64,000 nt of DNA from assembly GCF_002153425.1 (NCBI RefSeq), contig NZ_KZ119600.1, positions 2,531,920 through 2,595,919 on the forward strand, written 5' to 3'. The DNA is from Litchfieldia alkalitelluris. GTDB taxonomy: Bacteria; Bacillota; Bacilli; Bacillales; Salisediminibacteriaceae. Within the stretch, counting starts at the first letter, position 1. Every line of letters begins with the position of its first letter. The position numbers and the translations under genes are program-made. Shown here one piece after another: positions 18,013-40,982 of the stretch. The notes beneath the pieces were generated by a model that had not been told where the DNA came from, did not search any database, and saw nothing but the letters and a program-made list of their open reading frames with translations.

Positions 18013-18379
18013 CATCCTTTCAATAGCTGTTATTATCTCTGTTAGGTGACATTTCCATTGGTGTCCTTATATTTTGTGGTATACCCCTACTGGAAGTAGC
18101 GGGCAAAATCCGTGAACTTGCAGGTTGCTAATTGCTTTGTTAGTCACGGTTTGTCCGCTGAATGGTAGTGATATTAGAACTAATTTAGATTGTTCAACTA
18201 ACAGAGCTTTTTATTAAACCAATATTAGTATGTGTTGGTAACCCGTTTCTATGTAGGCTGGAAAAAAAGGAAAAAAGGTGGTCACGTGATGATGTTTTAT
18301 CTGACACAAGATGTTTCATTGATCGAAACTGTCGTGTTGCAAAGCTCGTTATGGGTAATTAAACTTGGTTTATTTGACC
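18013..18379. other. Gene-free spacer
   Basis: AT-rich stretch between a small gene and the 82-bp array. I see no open frame with a ribosome site, no hairpin of note and no RNA gene. Confidence 0.5.
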
Positions 18380-19435
18380 GATGCTGTGAAATCCGCGTGT
18401 AGAACCCCGAATCTGGCCTGTAGAACAGCAAAACCCGCGCGTAGAACCGCTGCTCCCGTTTCAAAATGTGGCATCGGCGTGAACAACCTTGAATCTGGCG
18501 CGTAGAACAGCGAAACCCGCGCGTAAAACCGCAAAATCGGCGCGTAGAACAGCAAAACCCGCGCGTAGGACTGCAAAATCGGCGCGTGGAACCACTGCTC
18601 CCGTTTCAAAATGTGAAATCGGCGTGAACAACCTTGAATCTGGCCTGTAGAACAGCGAAACCCGCGCGTGGAACCACCGCTCCCGTTTCAAAATGTGACA
18701 TCGGCGTGAACAACCTTGAATCTGGCGCGTAGAAGAGCGAAACCCGCGCGTAAAACCGCAAAATCGGCGCGTAGAACCACAAAACCCGCGCGTAAAACCG
18801 CAAAATCGGCGCGTAGATCCACCGATCCCGCTTCAAAATGTGACATCGGCGTGAACAACCGTGAATCTGGCCTGTAGAACAGCGAAGCCCGCGCGTGGAA
18901 CCACCGCTCCCGTGTCAAAATGTGACATCGGCGTGAACAACCGTGAATCTGGCCTGTAGAACAGCGAAGCCCGCGCGTGGAACCACCGCTCCCGTGTCAA
19001 AATGTGACATCGGCGTGAACAACCGTGAATCTGGCCTGTAGAACAGCGAAGCCCGCGCGTGGAACCACCGCTCCCGTGTCAAAATGTGACATCGGCGTGA
19101 ACAACCGTGAATCTGGCCTGTAGAACAGCGAAGCCCGCGCGTGGAACCACCGCTCCCGTGTCAAAATGTGACATCGGCGTGAACAACCGTGAATCTGGCC
19201 TGTAGAACAGCGAAGCCCGCGCGTGGAACCACCGCTCCCGTTTCAAAATGTGACATCGGCGTGAACAACCTTGAATCTGGCGCGTAGAACAGCGAAACCC
19301 GCGCGTAAAACTGCAAAATCGGCGCGTGGAACCACCGCTCCCGTTTCAAAATGTGACATCGGCGTGAACAACCTTGATTCTGGCGCGTAGAACAGCGAAA
19401 CCCGCGCGTAAAACTGCAAAATCGGCGCGTAGATC
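18380..19435. repeat. GC-rich tandem array with 82-bp unit
   Basis: The marker CATCGGCGTGAACAACC recurs at about 18472, 18617, 18699, 18844, 18926, 19008, 19090, 19172, 19254 and 19367. Spacings are 145, 82, 145, 82, 82, 82, 82, 82 and 113 bases. Longer spacings are 82 plus one or two extra subunits of about 31 bases (CGCGTAGAAC...AACCCGCGCG). Five consecutive 82-bp copies are almost identical, so recent amplification is likely. Minus-strand open frames exist but change frame between copies. Confidence 0.9.
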
Positions 19436-19584
19436 ACCGTACACTCCCTCCCAAAGGGATATTAAACTCGAATTATACGACCGTAGCACCGACGCAACCT
19501 CTACAAAGTGAAATAAACTCTACTTTATAATGCATTCACCAAGTCAATTCTTTTAAGCAACCCGTCCAAAAGCTCACAACAAAA

Positions 19585-23883: not shown

Positions 23884-25341
23884 TTAAGCTTTCCCTACTT
23901 CGATTATATTTTTTACAAGCAATGAAATTTCGTCTTCAGCAATTGTTCGGAAATCAATAAAAACGTGCTCCCCTTTCACACGGCAAATGACCGGGATTTT
24001 CAATGTTCGTAACAACTTCTCCAAACCGTTGGGGCTATAGTCTAACTTCGATAAAGTAATCCCCACTGTTGGCCTTTCTACAGTTGGCATTGTACCTCCC
24101 CCGATCAAAGAGGTTTCCTTTATTTTTCCAACAGTAATGGATTCGGTCCCAAGAGCTCCAAACAACTTCTCCAATTCCCCTAAGAAATTGTCCACCTTCC
24201 TTTCAATTTCCTCTTCCGTCTGGAGAATGTCACGGACAGTTGGATTTTCCTTTTCAACCTCATTACTGTATACAAAGGTATGTAAAGTTGCTTCTAGTGC
24301 TGCAAGGGTCATTTTATCTACACGCAACACTCTTGCTAACGGGTGCTTTTTTAATCGGTCAATCAACGCTTTTTTACCAACAATAATACCTGCTTGTGGA
24401 CCTCCAAGTAATTTATCTCCACTAAAGGAAATGATATCTGCACCTGATTGCAGTGATTCTTTGACCACTGGCTCCTCGCCAATTCCATCATGGCGGAAAG
24501 GATATAAAGATCCGCTTCCTAAATCTTCATATACTATGATGTTTTCGCCATTCCCGTTGGAGTTGGTATTGGCAATTTCCTTTAATTCACCTGAAGATAC
24601 CTCTTTCGTAAAGCCTACTGTCTTAAAATTACTCGTATGCACTTTCATCAACATACCAGTCTGTTCCGTAATGGCATCCTTATAATCATAAGCGTGTGTC
24701 TTGTTCGTCGTCCCAACTTCAATCAAAGTAGCGTCACTCTCTTCCATAATAGTGGAAACGCGAAAGGAACCACCAATTTCCACCAACTCCCCCCTTGAAA
24801 CAATTACTTCCTTCCCACGACAAAGACCACGGAGAATAAGGTAAACAGCGGCCGCATTGTTATTCACAACCATCGCCGCTTCGCCACCTGTTGCTTTCAG
24901 AAGTAAATCCTGCAAAATATCATGCCTCGAGCCACGCTCACCTGCGTCAATATTATACTCCAATGTGCTATAATGCTTGGCAGTTTCTACAACACGTTCG
25001 ACTGCAAGTTCACTTAATCGTGCCCTACCAATATTCGTATGGAGTACAGTTCCCGTACCATTGATTACGCGTTGTAGCTTGAAAGGTCGGTATGATTTCA
25101 TATCCTTTATTATTTTTTGAAAAATGTTTTGCTGTAGTTCTTCCTTGGTCACTCCTTCAAATGAAGATGGCTTGTCCAGAATATCTGAACGCAACTCTTC
25201 TAAATGCTGTTGCACCCATTCCTTTATGACGTCCTTTGGAATGTGTTGGCCGCCGATCCCCTCATATTGGCCTTCTATACACTTGTCCATCTCTTCCATA
25301 ATTGTATGTACTGCAGGTAATTGCCGCATTGGGTTTGACAT
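23884..25341 (-). CDS. selA: L-seryl-tRNA(Sec) selenium transferase
   Basis: 485 residues. The PLP enzyme converts Ser-tRNA(Sec) to Sec-tRNA(Sec) with selenophosphate in a large cytosolic ring. The N-terminal domain is about 1-90; the substrate loop NGTGTVLHTNIGRA and the PLP-binding stretch SFSGDKLLGGPQAG (Lys as Schiff base) are intact. GGAGCGATAAAGA precedes the ATG. It is on the minus strand, in a cluster with a small membrane gene, a selenoprotein gene and divergent selD; selB and tRNA-Sec lie 13-16 kb away. The system is complete. Confidence 0.95.
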   Translation of the reverse strand: MSNPMRQLPAVHTIMEEMDKCIEGQYEGIGGQHIPKDVIKEWVQQHLEELRSDILDKPSSFEGVTKEELQQNIFQKIIKDMKSYRPFKLQRVINGTGTVLHTNIGRARLSELAVERVVETAKHYSTLEYNIDAGERGSRHDILQDLLLKATGGEAAMVVNNNAAAVYLILRGLCRGKEVIVSRGELVEIGGSFRVSTIMEESDATLIEVGTTNKTHAYDYKDAITEQTGMLMKVHTSNFKTVGFTKEVSSGELKEIANTNSNGNGENIIVYEDLGSGSLYPFRHDGIGEEPVVKESLQSGADIISFSGDKLLGGPQAGIIVGKKALIDRLKKHPLARVLRVDKMTLAALEATLHTFVYSNEVEKENPTVRDILQTEEEIERKVDNFLGELEKLFGALGTESITVGKIKETSLIGGGTMPTVERPTVGITLSKLDYSPNGLEKLLRTLKIPVICRVKGEHVFIDFRTIAEDEISLLVKNIIEVGKA

Positions 25342-25614
25342 TCTTTATCGCTCCAGTTCGTAAATCTATATTTTTCCATAAATAATACCAGGCATTTCGG
25401 TCATCATATATAGTGAAGAGGGAGTCAATCGATTCTTTCTTCAAAATGAGAAGATACAGTTTGAAAAGGGTTTCGACGTAATAAACCTTGAGGGGTGGTT
25501 CGCTTGTACTTGTAACAAGCAATAAACGCATCAAGGAAAAAAAACGATCGAAAAATGAGGTGTTTCCGAAAGACAAACATCGCCAGTACCCCAGACGGTC
25601 TGTATCACTCTAGG
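25342..25614. other. Spacer upstream of selA
   Basis: About 270 bases between selA and a terminator. I see no open frame with a ribosome site and no clear structured RNA; a short hairpin GCTTGTTACAAGTACAAGC-like lies at about 25510-25530. Confidence 0.4.
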
Positions 25615-26065: not shown

Positions 26066-26302
26066 CTAAAGTGACTCCATCTTTTTAATAATCTCTTGTG
26101 TGTCAGGGAATTCTCCCTTTTCTAACTTCGAATAAATTTTTTCCCCATTCACGGTCACTTCAAAAGCTCCCCCTGAACTGGCGATTAAATTCAAATTCTC
26201 AATATTAGCTCGGAAATGATTAAATAGTTCTTCTGCGAAACTCGCAGCTTTTGGCGCGTAGTTTCACTGCTGGCAAAACTCGACTGAAATTTTGTAACTC
26301 AT
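26066..26302 (-). CDS. Selenoprotein of the SelT/SelW/SelH (Rdx) family with CxxU
   Basis: Reading through one in-frame TGA (26264-26266) gives 78 residues: MSYKISVEFCQQ, Sec, then NYAPKAASFAEE, with SGGAFEVTVNG and GEFPDTQEIIKKME later. The Cys10-Gln-Gln-Sec13 motif lies after the first beta strand, exactly where CxxC or CxxU stands in the Rdx thioredoxin-like family. The C-terminal GAFEV...PD features fit too. It is probably a cytosolic thiol oxidoreductase. Length is normal for the family, and the frame on both sides of the TGA is open and conserved in character. A perfect hairpin follows the TGA (26233-26247). The gene is divergent from selD and in the selA cluster. Conventional calling would miss or truncate it. 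Confidence 0.9.
26233..26247 (-). promoter_or_regulatory. SECIS-like hairpin of the SelW-like gene
   Basis: On the minus strand CTGCGA-GTT-TCGCAG, a perfect 6-bp stem with a 3-base loop starting with G. The stem begins 16 bases, and the loop 22 bases, after the TGA. This fits the bacterial SECIS pattern recognised by SelB. Confidence 0.8.
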
Positions 26303-26413
26303 AGAACATACCCCTTTTCCATGAAAATTTTGTTAAATATACAATTACATTTTATAATAGTGTTTGTGATGATTCAAAAATCATGCTTAGATGGAATGTA
26401 GGAGGTGCTACGG
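26303..26413. other. Divergent promoter region of the SelW-like gene and selD
   Basis: 111 AT-rich bases between the two divergent UGA-containing genes. AGGAGGTGCTACGG before 26414 is the selD ribosome site. I could not define promoter boxes with confidence. Confidence 0.4.
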
Positions 26414-27475
26414 ATGGAAGGACAAGGGAAAGAACAGGAATTTAGACTTACAGCCATGTCATCAAAAGCTGGCTGAGGATGCAAAATTGGTCCTAGTGAC
26501 CTAGCGCAGGTGCTGCGTCATTTACCTCAAACATCGAAAAATGAAAGACTCCTTGTTGGACACGATACTTCTGATGATGGAGGAGTATACAAGCTAACTG
26601 ATGAAATCGCCTTGATTCAAACCGTTGATTACTTCACACCGATTGTTGATGATCCATATATGTTCGGACAAATTGCGGCAGCAAATGCCTTAAGTGATGT
26701 TTACGCCATGGGCGGAGAACCGACAACCGTTTTAAATATCGTGGGATTCCCAATTAAGAAACTACCACATGAAATGCTAGCAGAGATTTTAAAGGGTGCT
26801 GCAGATAAAGTGGACGAGGCTGGTGCTGTGATTGCTGGTGGGCACTCCATCGATGATGCGGAACCAAAATTTGGACTTAGCGTAACAGGCGTCGTTCATC
26901 CAGACCGTATATTTAAAAACGTAGGCGCACAGCCCGGTGATAAATTAGTACTTACAAAGCCTATCGGCGTAGGTATTTTAACGACGGGCATCAAGCGGGA
27001 TAAAACTTCAAAGGAGCAAGCTGCATTGGTAACGAAAACGATGGCCGCTTTAAATCGAACAGCTTGTGAAGCACTTAAAGACTTCTCCCCTAACGCTGTT
27101 ACTGATGTCACTGGCTTCGGCCTTATGGGGCACGGTTTTGAAATGGCCAAAGGTAGTGATGTAAGCTTTAAAATAAGTCTTTCTGATGTTCCTATGCTCG
27201 ATGGAACGAAGGAATTGGCTGAGCAAGGCGTTGTTCCTGGTGGATCCAAATCGAATCATAAATGGCTTGAAAATGTAGTAGAATACGGGGAATCCGTTAG
27301 TGATGTAGATCAGCTTATTCTATGCGATGCTATCACCTCTGGCGGCCTTCTTGTTAGTTTACCTGAAACTGATTCCATACGGTACGTGAAATATCTAGAA
27401 GAGCTTGGTATTTCTGAAGCAAAGATTATTGGAAGTGTCGTGGAGAAGCGGGAAAAAGCAATTTATGTTGATTAA
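26414..27475 (+). CDS. selD: Selenide, water dikinase, itself a selenoprotein
   Basis: 353 residues reading through an in-frame TGA (codon 21, 26474-26476). The N-terminus reads TAMSSKAG, Sec, GCKIGPSDLAQVL, exactly the SelD active-site loop in which the catalytic residue is Cys or Sec followed by GCK(I)GP. SelD makes selenophosphate from selenide and ATP for SelA. Further conserved regions are GHDTSDDGGVYKL, DVYAMGGEP, AGGHSIDD and DVTGFGLMGHG. AGGAGGTG lies before the ATG at 26414. A start after the TGA would delete the catalytic loop. Sec in SelD makes its own supply depend on the pathway. Confidence 0.95.
26505..26517 (+). promoter_or_regulatory. SECIS-like hairpin in selD
   Basis: CGCAG-GTG-CTGCG, a 5-bp stem with a G-first loop 33 bases after the TGA. 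A second candidate, GGTC-CTAGT-GACC at 26489-26501, starts 12 bases after the TGA. One of these probably recruits SelB; I favour the first because it resembles the hairpin of the neighbouring selenoprotein. Confidence 0.6.
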
Positions 27476-36734: not shown

Positions 36735-38621
36735 CTACTTCTGCCACACCCGCTCGTTCCCGTCACGTTTTGTCAGACCTAGTTTATCAAGGTGCTCCAT
36801 AAATGGTACCAAGTATTTTCTACTTAAGCCTAATACACTTTTTGCGTCTTGAAGGGTGAAACGAGTATCTGTCTTTTCAAATAATTGTTTAACACCTTGA
36901 TCAAAGGCTTCCTTTGTCATCACAAGCTTTTCATCTAACTCTACTGCTCGGTCAGACCGAATTAGGAAATGACGCAACTCCTCTTGCAAGTCTTTAGGAA
37001 TTCCTGCATCAACAGCAACCTCTTCATACGCAGCAACCTCAAGACCTTGTTTCTTAAGCGTTTCTTCCAGTTGCTCCATACGCTTTGACCATTGTTTTGG
37101 AAAACTCGGTTGGAATTGTGACAGTGCGATATACTGTCCGTTCTTTACGAAATCCTGACCACCTGTTACTACATCTATGACCAAATCAGCCAACTGCTTA
37201 CCATAAGACGTTAATGATTGCCTTATTTCTGCTTTATTTTTACCCTCACGTAGAGGATACGCTTCGTGAAATTCAGAGAGATCCTCCCTAATCAGCTCCA
37301 CCATTTCATCAAATACAGAAGTTAGGAGGAAATAATCGCCTAGCTTCATAACTTTTTCATCAGCTTCAAGTTTTGAAAGCAACAAGACACCTTCATCATT
37401 ATCCATTGCAGCTTCCTTCAGTAATTCATACTGTTTCAAACCCTTTTCTTTTTTGAGAATGTCAATAATTCTTTCTGATGGAGTCCCTTCTTTTTTACGG
37501 GCAAGCATATCTACGGTCGCTTGACCAAATTTATATTTTTCTCCATGGGGATCTATGACCTCGCCGCCACCAATTGTTTCAGCTGGAGTAGGGCGCCGCA
37601 CAATAAAGCGGTCTCCCCGCTTCGTAACCACTGGACTGTCGAGTCTCAGCTGGCACAACACATTTTTTCCATCCGTTAATTCATTACGGTCAAAAAAAAC
37701 AATCTTGCCATACACTTCCGCTGTTCCAAGATGGAGCTTAATATAGCCCCGTTGCTTTAATGGATGATCGAGGTTCTCCACCGTATCAAGGGAAATATCA
37801 ATCGTATCCGTAGTGCTGTAGTATTGGGTAGAAACAAGGACATCGCCACGCTTCATTTCATGCTTCGAAATACCACCTAAATTTATAGCTACACGTTGAC
37901 CTGCACGAGCAGAGGTCTGTGGTTCATGATGAACTTGCATTTGCCTAGACCGCACCTTTCTCCCTTGAGGAAGCAATTCAAGTACATCACCTTCGTTTAC
38001 CATTCCCTCATAAACCGTTCCTCGAACAACAGTACCTTGTCCGTGTACGGTAAAGACTTGATCGATTGGTAGACGAAAGGCCCCAGTCGCGTCCCGCATC
38101 GGAACATCCTTTAAGTATGCTTTTATTTTTTCCTTTAATTCTGGAATACCTTTTTTCGAGAGGCTGTCCACAAAAAGCAAGTCGGAACCTTCGAAAAATG
38201 TGCCTTCCACCTGTTCATAAATATCAGCTTCGATAAGTTCGATCATGTCGTCTTCCACTTGATCCATTTTTGTTACTACAATGAGTCCCTTATGTATTCC
38301 TAGAAGGTTTAAAATATCAAGATGTTCCACTGTCTGAGGCATAACCCCTTCGTCTGCTGCAACCACCAGTAAAACGAGGTCAATGCCAGCCACCCCAGCT
38401 ATCATCTGCCTTATAAATTTCTCGTGTCCTGGCACATCAATGATGGAGACATGAGATTCATCATCTAATTTTAAGGGAGCATATCCCAACTCAATGGAAA
38501 TGGCCCGCTCCTTTTCCTCTTTTAATCGATCTGTATCTATGTTTGTGAGTGCCTTTGTTAGGGTCGTTTTTCCATGGTCAATATGACCTGCCATGCCTAT
38601 TGTATAAAAAAGCTCAGCCAT
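36735..38621 (-). CDS. selB: Selenocysteine-specific translation elongation factor
   Basis: 628 residues, as usual for SelB. The EF-Tu-like GTPase domain has [18 protein letters not shown] and TKMD; domains II and III follow, and the C-terminal half is a string of winged helices ([15 protein letters not shown]..., [19 protein letters not shown]) that bind the SECIS hairpin. It delivers Sec-tRNA(Sec) to UGA codons. The ATG at 38621 follows AGGAGGAGACAACTC; an open frame further upstream runs through an inverted repeat and is not coding. selC lies 790 bases upstream on the other strand. Confidence 0.95.
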
Positions 38622-38686
38622 GAGTTGTCTCCTCCTAAAAAACAAATAAAATAAGTTCAGCCACTTTATGTACAGGTATATTTTAA

Positions 38687-38725
38687 CACAAAACATTCGG
38701 GGACCAGGTCCCCGAATGTTTTGTG
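38687..38725. repeat. Near-perfect 39-base palindrome upstream of selB
   Basis: 19-bp arms CACAAAACATTCGGGGACC and its complement around a single central base. I have seen this palindrome family (GGGGACC.GGTCCCC) in other Bacillaceae intergenic regions. It could be a terminator, a protein site or a repeat copy. Confidence 0.7.
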
Positions 38726-38785
38726 AACAGAAGAAAAGTGTCACAGAGGAAATTACGCTCTATGACACTTGAAAATCAAACTAAA

Positions 38786-39410: not shown

Positions 39411-39507
39411 GGGGCCGGATGTGTAACTGGTGTTTGCCGAGGTCTTCAAAACCTTTTGGGAGGCGCGTGACGTCTCCGCTGGGTTCGATTCCCAGACGGT
39501 CCCGCCA
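39411..39507 (+). tRNA. selC: tRNA-Sec (anticodon UCA)
   Basis: 97 bases including CCA. Acceptor GGGGCCG pairs with CGGTCCC; anticodon arm GAGGT-CTTCAAA-ACCTT with UCA at 39446-39448; a 7-bp long variable arm (39459-39465 with 39471-39477); T arm CTGGG-TTCGATT-CCCAG; discriminator G then encoded CCA (39505-39507). The long variable arm and UCA anticodon are diagnostic for selenocysteine tRNA. A good promoter lies upstream. Its 3' end abuts the integrase end of a putative mobile element. Confidence 0.96.
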
Positions 39508-39582
39508 ACCCTTGATACATAAGGCTTTTTGTTGGTTATGCTTGGTAGGTAGTAGGTTGTAGCAAACCCACAATTTATGCTT

Positions 39583-39611
39583 GAGTGCCGTTGGAGTGCC
39601 ATAGGAGTGCC
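39583..39611. repeat. GAGTGCC repeats next to integrase
   Basis: Three GAGTGCC units at 39583, 39594 and 39605, an 11-base period, between tRNA-Sec and the integrase stop. Possible arm-type binding sites. Confidence 0.55.
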
Positions 39612-39625
39612 ATTTTTGTTTTTTT

Positions 39626-40867
39626 CTATTCATTATCAAATGCTGAATCGAATATGTCAGCAGCACTATCCTGCAAAGATGGAATTACGTGAGAATAAAG
39701 ATCCAGAGTAATTCCGATTTTAGAATGACCTAATCTTTCTGAAACAATTTTCGGATGGACATTTGCTTGAAGCAAAATGGTAGCATGCGAATGCCTCATG
39801 TCGTGAAAACGACTGTCTGGTAATTCCGCCTTCTTGACTGCTTTTTTGTACGCTAATCGTAATTCAGAAGGATGAACGTAGTTTCCAGCCGAATTAAAAA
39901 ATACTAAGTTATTTGGATTAAAAGATTTTCCTAAAACCTTTTTTTGATGATCACTTTTCCTTTTATGTTCTTCAAGAAAGTTTATTAAATTCTTCCCCAT
40001 GACAATATGACGCTCTTGTCCATTTTTGGTAGTATATTTAATTTTTACTCCTACTTTGCGAACGTCATAGGCCGTTTTACAAATAAAGAGCTTTTTATTC
40101 TTAAAGTCCACATCTTCCCATGTGAGAGCCCTTAATTCACCTAATCTCGCTCCAGTATAGGCAGCTGAATAAATAATGGGACCATAAACTTCATTAGATA
40201 CAGCGTGATTTAGAAGTAATTCTAACTCACCAGACGTATACGTTATAATTTTTAGTTTCTGAACTTTTGGCGGCTTTACCTTTTTAACTACATTCTTCTC
40301 GACAAATTCGAGATCTACTGCATCTGAAAGTGCCTTTGACAACACACGATGATGATGTTTAACCGATTGTGCAGATAGTAGACCATCATCCTCTTCCGAA
40401 TCCAACATATTTTCTGTTCTTACCTTCCTTGTATAATAATCCTGAATATCTCTAGGCTTTAATTTACTGAGTAAAATATCCCCTAATGCTGGTTTTATAT
40501 GAACCCGGATCATTCGCTCATATCCAAGAAAAGTATTATACGCCGTATTGGTCTCAACATAAGTCTTTAACCAATAGTCCAAATAATCTCCCAATTTTAT
40601 CTCTTCATTATCCTCTGATTCAGTTGATTTGTTTGAATCATTTGAAGCTACTTCATCATTAGCTACAGCTGTTACGTTAGATTCCGTTTTCTCAGGTTCG
40701 TTATTATATAGATCCGCTATTGCCGCAGTCATTGCTTTGCGCGCCTCGGTTCTATTTTTAAACCCTCTTCTTACGATTCGCTTCCTTTTACCAGTTTCAT
40801 CTTTTCCTAATTCAATTGTAAATAGGAAGTAATTTTTCTTTTTATCTTCTCGTACATTGCCAGTCAT
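39626..40867 (-). CDS. Tyrosine recombinase, phage/ICE-type integrase
   Basis: About 413 residues. An N-terminal AP2-like DNA-binding part (YFLFTIELGKDETGKRKR), a core-binding domain (about 80-190) and the catalytic domain. Catalytic residues are seen in TGARLGELRALTW (Arg), HDMRHSHAT (His-x-x-Arg), RLGHSKIGIT (His) and the nucleophile Tyr in DLYSHV. The ATG at 40867 follows AGGAGGAACGATA. The gene ends 119 bases from tRNA-Sec, the usual place for an integrase whose att site is a tRNA 3' end. An excisionase-like gene is upstream. Confidence 0.92.
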   Translation of the reverse strand: MTGNVREDKKKNYFLFTIELGKDETGKRKRIVRRGFKNRTEARKAMTAAIADLYNNEPEKTESNVTAVANDEVASNDSNKSTESEDNEEIKLGDYLDYWLKTYVETNTAYNTFLGYERMIRVHIKPALGDILLSKLKPRDIQDYYTRKVRTENMLDSEEDDGLLSAQSVKHHHRVLSKALSDAVDLEFVEKNVVKKVKPPKVQKLKIITYTSGELELLLNHAVSNEVYGPIIYSAAYTGARLGELRALTWEDVDFKNKKLFICKTAYDVRKVGVKIKYTTKNGQERHIVMGKNLINFLEEHKRKSDHQKKVLGKSFNPNNLVFFNSAGNYVHPSELRLAYKKAVKKAELPDSRFHDMRHSHATILLQANVHPKIVSERLGHSKIGITLDLYSHVIPSLQDSAADIFDSAFDNE

Positions 40868-40982
40868 TATCGTTCCTCCTACTTTAATAATTGACTGGGC
40901 CTCGTACATGACACTATATATATTATACTAAACTATTTTATTTAGATAAATATAGTAATATATGGCCCAGTCAGTTTGTTGT

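Follow-up and report, generated by a model that had tools for sequence, protein, structure and literature searches.

The minus-strand frame between positions 26302 and 26066 of the Litchfieldia alkalitelluris DNA analysed here (a stretch of 64,000 nucleotides, called the window below) most probably encodes a small selenoprotein of the Rdx family, in which SelB and tRNA-Sec would decode an in-frame UGA as residue 13 with the help of a hairpin located shortly downstream, giving a product with a Cys10-x-x-Sec13 redox motif. We put the probability of this reading at about 0.93. It is carried by the family match, the motif, the conserved UGA codon, the covarying hairpin, the tie to the Sec machinery and the conserved locus. 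The first-pass annotation of this DNA had proposed a redox selenoprotein on the reading of UGA as selenocysteine, and that proposal is now supported by the family match, by SECIS-like covariation and by the way in which the gene tracks SelB across genomes.

Gene and family assignment

The selW-like gene (26066–26302, minus strand) comprises 78 codons plus a stop codon and is interrupted solely by the TGA at 26266–26264; the frame, its length, the position of the TGA and the CQQ-UGA motif had all been placed correctly to the base in the first-pass annotation. The read-through product has the sequence MSYKISVEFCQQ-U-NYAPKAASF..., with the motif Cys10-Gln-Gln-Sec13. The tetrapeptide CQQU conforms to the CxxU pattern of the family, and in an alignment of 32 sequences (the window and 31 of the 80 named loci described below) the Cys, whose codon lies at 26273–26275, and the Sec are both invariant. 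A likely ribosome-binding site, AAAAGGGG, can be read at 26311–26318 on the same strand, 8 nt 5' of the ATG, and a promoter-like site is suggested at 26349–26377 by a consensus match of 9/12.

The read-through protein matches the Pfam family Rdx (PF10262), to which it had been ascribed, with 84.7 bits against a cut-off of 22.6 (E = 5.1e-24; residues 4–75 on model positions 1–72 of 74) and TIGR02174 (CXXU_selWTH) with 71.6 bits against a cut-off of 34.2 (E = 5e-20), and is thus a member of both by their curated cut-offs. These scores, from matches that extend across the UGA, show that the frame is not a product of chance. SelW-like proteins are an established bacterial selenoprotein family and this gene is a member of it, so the protein is not of a new kind.

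A thioredoxin-like fold is a trait of the Rdx/SelW family, and the sequence match to solved members supports such a fold as the predicted one for the selW-like protein. Eight distinct sequences of solved structures match it at E = 0.01 or better, among them 2fa8 (E = 2e-12), 2p0g and 3dex, with a weak match to 2npb, Selenoprotein W (E = 0.0024). The similarity covers about residues 3–75, but the deposited proteins have 105–107 residues (96 in 2npb) compared with 78 here. In three alignments the deposited sequences of 2fa8 (Atu0228), 2p0g and 3dex (SAV_2001) carry Cys where the selW-like gene has UGA, which bears out the earlier statement that members of the family may have Cys at this position.

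Conservation of the UGA codon and constraint on the protein

Searching public genomes yielded 142 confirmed relatives of the gene, the best 80 of which were used as named loci; judging from their titles, they presumably belong mostly to genera of the Bacillaceae. All 80 carry Cys-x-x-UGA with UGA at the same codon as in the window (26264–26266), mostly as CMQU (as in locus L010) or CMMU. Every one of these frames continues through the UGA, and homologues ending there, which the first-pass annotation had named as a finding that would speak against its reading, do not occur among these best 80 of the 142 relatives.

Whole genomes gave a similar picture. An Rdx match was found in 59 of 100 related genomes (the genome of the window included), with one match per genome and exactly one TGA inside each. 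In 30 genomes (the window's own and those of L083–L111) the codon was read, and each time this TGA proved to be the one of the CxxU motif; in the remaining 29 the TGA is known to lie inside the match, its codon position having been read separately just for the genome G006. Among 398 genomes sampled from the phylum, an Rdx match is present in 30, with one TGA in 28 of them and no stop in two, the TGA being located here to the match and not to the codon except in genomes shared with the set of 100; the six weakest of these matches (E = 7e-9 to 6e-6) sit in frames of 271–320 residues. The 80 named loci and the 100 genomes are not independent sets, since nine of the 28 unnamed loci that were compared have the same 150-nt sequence as a named locus.

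The codons downstream of the UGA are under protein-level constraint. Between the window and the 80 relatives their mean pN is 0.163 and their mean pS 0.764, and pN is smaller than pS in all 3153 pairs compared out of 3160, pairs with few synonymous differences having been left out.

A covarying hairpin downstream of the UGA

Bacterial SECIS elements stand within a characteristic range of distances from the UGA. The hairpin at 26233–26247 (minus strand), present as the first-pass annotation had described it, lies 16 nt after the UGA and consists of a 6-bp stem and the loop GUU (CTGCGA-GTT-TCGCAG in the DNA); it therefore has the position soon after the UGA and the small apical loop with a G near its start that define a SECIS element, a G in a small apical loop being described for bacterial SECIS elements in passages of PMC1088965.

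The relatives were compared in an alignment of 60-nt stretches from the window and L003–L111, which after removal of duplicates left 91 distinct sequences; the positions of L028, L034 and L077 were set by hand, and L086 (motif CMQUSYAPQ) stood outside the alignment. RNAalifold chose exactly the hairpin of the first-pass annotation from these 91 stretches. Its pair cells are paired in 99.6% of 546 cases, compared with 94.8% in shuffles (0 of 500 as high), and the pairing drops to 18.5–65.4% when the partner is slid by 1–3 columns. Cells changed on both sides number 36 against 9.8 in shuffles (again 0 of 500 as high), these being counts of sequences and not of events, with 28 of the 36 belonging to one pair. 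Such double changes occur at three of the six pairs (C-G to U-A twice, G-C to A-U once), where shuffles give 1.4 on average and 8 of 500 reach three, and there is no excess of further pair types (5 against 5.4, reached by 500 of 500 shuffles), so that the support is weak by two of the five measures of covariation. In L086 the UGA is present as well and the stem is paired as CTGCGC-GGT-GCGCAG, with the innermost pair changed on both sides.

The "perfect SECIS hairpin" of the first-pass annotation is thus real and covaries, but its perfection in one sequence counts for little. Of 100000 synonymous recodings of the peptide, 6178 contain a perfect stem of 6 bp whose loop has G as its first or second base, and so do the sequences after 38 of the 2288 TGA triplets of the window; because such hairpins are not rare by chance, the SECIS claim rests on the relatives. 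The evidence that the hairpin gives is weak in a single sequence and strong across relatives. Its covariation is that expected of a SECIS element, which would be a target of SelB. A longer lowest-energy fold of the window sequence was rejected, since 90.3% of its cells are paired in the relatives, the same as in shuffles (90.3%), and no covariation was found.

The sel locus

The assignment of the gene to a selA-selD cluster holds. selA, encoding selenocysteine synthase, lies downstream on the same strand (23884–25341), and selD is the divergent upstream neighbor (26456–27475, plus strand, with the start codon chosen here), itself containing an in-frame UGA at 26474–26476 in the motif MSSKAGUGCK. 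The mechanical listing of open reading frames had started selD further downstream, at a GTG. Among 115 selD sequences read, 95 have the motif, 94 of them with UGA and one with Cys. The window also contains selB, the selenocysteine elongation factor gene (36735–38744, minus strand, as the open frame is listed; the true start is probably further in), and the tRNA-Sec gene selC (39411–39507, plus strand). In the DNA surrounding the best 80 of the 142 relatives, selA follows the selW-like gene on the same strand in 79 loci; 63 have a divergent selD, and 74 have an aconitase gene further along.

Co-occurrence with SelB

SelB exceeds its curated cut-off in 64 of the 100 related genomes. This cut-off was used because 99 of the 100 match at a loose E-value; among the matches listed, the lower-scoring ones cover about the first 262–345 of 581 positions, and partial-length matches of this kind are expected from other translation GTPases. 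Rdx was found in 59 of the 64 SelB-positive genomes and in none of the 36 SelB-negative ones (Fisher p = 4e-22), or in 58 of 64 (p = 3e-21) if the broken copy of G006 is counted as lacking, values that are not strict probabilities since the genomes are related. UGA-type formate dehydrogenase occurs in at least 18 of the 59 Rdx genomes, so that Rdx (59 of 64, one of them broken) tracks the Sec machinery more regularly than this enzyme does. In G005, an assembly 76% complete, UGA-type formate dehydrogenase is seen and neither SelB nor Rdx appears. What is new here is that, among SelB-bearing Bacillales, the SelW-like gene is nearly fixed and keeps its place in the sel locus. Together with the constraint and the covarying hairpin, these sequence patterns make the insertion of selenocysteine at codon 13 highly probable.

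The position that the gene keeps between selD and selA, and a co-occurrence with SelB closer than that of UGA-type formate dehydrogenase, are what a part in selenium handling would also produce, with the Bacillales protein acting as a carrier, reductant or sensor for SelD or SelA instead of as a general redox protein or antioxidant. Such a role, if true, would explain both the fixed place and the close tie to SelB, but co-location is expected of any Sec-dependent gene too. The SelB-positive genomes lacking Rdx are G034 (80% complete) and four that are near-complete (G042, G087, G078 and G093; loci L112–L115), and the latter keep selA beside a selD with UGA, with no rdx between them. rdx is therefore not essential for the pathway, and a role in selenium supply, possible as it is, is weakened to the point where we consider it unlikely. 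As to UGA-containing client genes in these four genomes, one TlpA-like UGA frame was seen, in G078 (L133).

In G006 (locus L116), a genome of the same genus as that of the window, the Rdx match is a fragment of an rdx broken at its 5' end, and the TGA in this fragment does not correspond to the Sec codon. The 5' part has been replaced by repeat-like sequence and SelD is of the Cys type, with selA and selB still there; a loss of Sec use in progress is possible in this genome.

Spacing between the selW-like gene and selA

Measured up to where the selA match begins, the gap after the selW-like gene is 56–175 nt in 26 of 79 loci, 257 nt in one, 382–883 nt in 51 and 4142 nt in one, and amounts to 724 nt in the window. 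This distribution bears on the idea that the UGA and hairpin act mainly as a regulatory switch, with termination when selenium is scarce and read-through when it is plentiful setting the expression of selA, and with the 78-residue protein of secondary importance. The order of the two genes on one strand in 79 of 80 loci and the gaps below 180 nt in 26 of 79 would suit a switch, but the 380–890 nt found in 51 loci and in the window, the gap of over 4 kb in one locus and the opposite-strand frame held by many of the long gaps would not, and neither would the conservation of the protein after the UGA at the level of residues; we regard the switch as very improbable. Least credible, and in our view strongly refuted, is a decayed or mis-sequenced Rdx gene with a dead frame and a TGA that is either a genuine stop codon or an error of assembly: an early UGA would look alike in a single genome, and G006 does combine a broken rdx with a Cys-type SelD, but decay or error is at odds with the same-codon UGA of 80 out of 80 named loci and the one TGA in all 59 matches, with the protein constraint after the UGA and the covarying hairpin, and with the lack of any Rdx match in the 36 SelB-negative genomes.

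The opposite-strand frame of the long gaps was taken, by its looks, for a small heat-shock protein. The gap of the window contains a small frame resembling a membrane protein, which in a search of gaps of 200–1500 nt had clear matches in L004 and L052, a weak one in L020 and none in L003 or L007. Between selA and the selW-like gene there is also a conserved element of about 130 nt on the plus strand (25474–25605; GAGGGGUGGUU...GCUUG...AAUGAGGUGUUUCC...ACAUCG...ACCCCA), present in 24 of the 100 related genomes and in two copies in six of them. It had no Rfam match at the gathering score and is a candidate for an unnamed structured RNA. A selenium-linked leader was considered and rejected, since the element occurs twice in six genomes and is also found in the SelB-negative G015, G017, G023, G027 and G031; the incomplete G005 contains it as well.

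Other predicted selenoproteins of the genome

Besides the selW-like gene and selD, the genome contains, outside the window, UGA frames for two peroxiredoxin-type proteins (motifs TPGU and FVUPTE), a TlpA-like lipoprotein (GVGUGTC) and a DsbA-like protein (SDYAUPFC; L130, L131, L132 and L144 in all), in each of which we take the UGA to stand at the position of the expected catalytic Cys. The names TlpA-like and lipoprotein are labels that we assume, the profile matches being to AhpC-TSA and DSBA. These frames exclude the selW-like gene as the sole Sec client, an idea prompted by the absence of in-frame stops from the genome's three formate dehydrogenase matches, all of those among the matches listed. 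A scan of SelD, both peroxiredoxin-type frames and the lipoprotein found, 3' of the UGA in each, a stem of 6 bp (G-U pairs counted) whose loop has G as its first or second base, a result with no chance control behind it. A search for GrdB/PrdB (PF07355) gave no match, and its control matched nowhere either. Few families were searched, so this list of selenoproteins is a lower bound.

Relation to known SelW proteins and predicted function

The bacterial SelW-like selenoproteins described in parts of PMC1088965, PMC1794560, PMC2398784 and PMC5029168 have the same CxxU motif, in-frame UGA and SECIS element with a small G-bearing apical loop. Passages of PMC1794560 (2006) report 10 SelW-like genes and three selenoproteins in Bacillales, with very few or no Cys homologues of SelW-like in Sec-containing organisms, and sections of PMC5029168 report 35 among over 5200 organisms. 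Compared with the 10 and 35 genes of these survey excerpts, the gene is here nearly fixed in SelB-positive relatives, with its place between selD and selA kept.

The SelW of Campylobacter jejuni (CJnc60) is 80–81 residues long and, according to portions of PMC11955535 and PMC4607533 and the entry NF041051, shares with the window protein the UGA-encoded Sec, a hairpin of 5/6 bp and the fate of being missed by annotation. Its full-length translation past the in-frame UGA is supported by Ribo-seq and proteomics in excerpts of PMC11955535. The two differ in that the window protein, at 83.5 bits, does not reach the cut-off of 88 of the Campylobacter equivalog (NF041051, SelTWH_Campy). Epsilonproteobacterial SelW genes are described as missed by annotation in passages of PMC4607533, and the selW-like gene is of this type.

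The selW-like gene would give a small protein with a thioredoxin fold, whose redox pair Cys10-x-x-Sec13 would form if SelB and charged tRNA-Sec place selenocysteine at UGA codon 13 with the assistance of the hairpin 16 nt 3' of it. The most likely role of this protein is that of a thiol/selenol oxidoreductase, reducing a disulfide or some oxidant of the cell and being regenerated by thioredoxin or a low-molecular-weight thiol. The function of bacterial SelW is called unclear in the portion of PMC1088965 consulted; no later answer was found in excerpts of the open-licence PMC literature, nor any work on SelW in Bacillaceae among the open-licence PMC papers listed as matches. A small gene with one match per Rdx genome is a convenient place to work this function out. 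The related genomes carrying it are, we assume, those of aerobic-type Bacillaceae relatives.

Other features of the window

At 39411–40909 an integrase gene adjoins the tRNA-Sec gene, and a copy of the last 28 bases of the tRNA gene, with a single mismatch, lies some 29.5 kb further on, outside the window (G000:C1:2600927-2600954, or about 69008 in window coordinates). An integrative element in the tRNA-Sec gene is likely. Similar short frames (FYAPILRFYARVSLFYAPDSRLFTP...) follow one another in series at 18370–19437 on the minus strand, giving this region the look of a tandem repeat.
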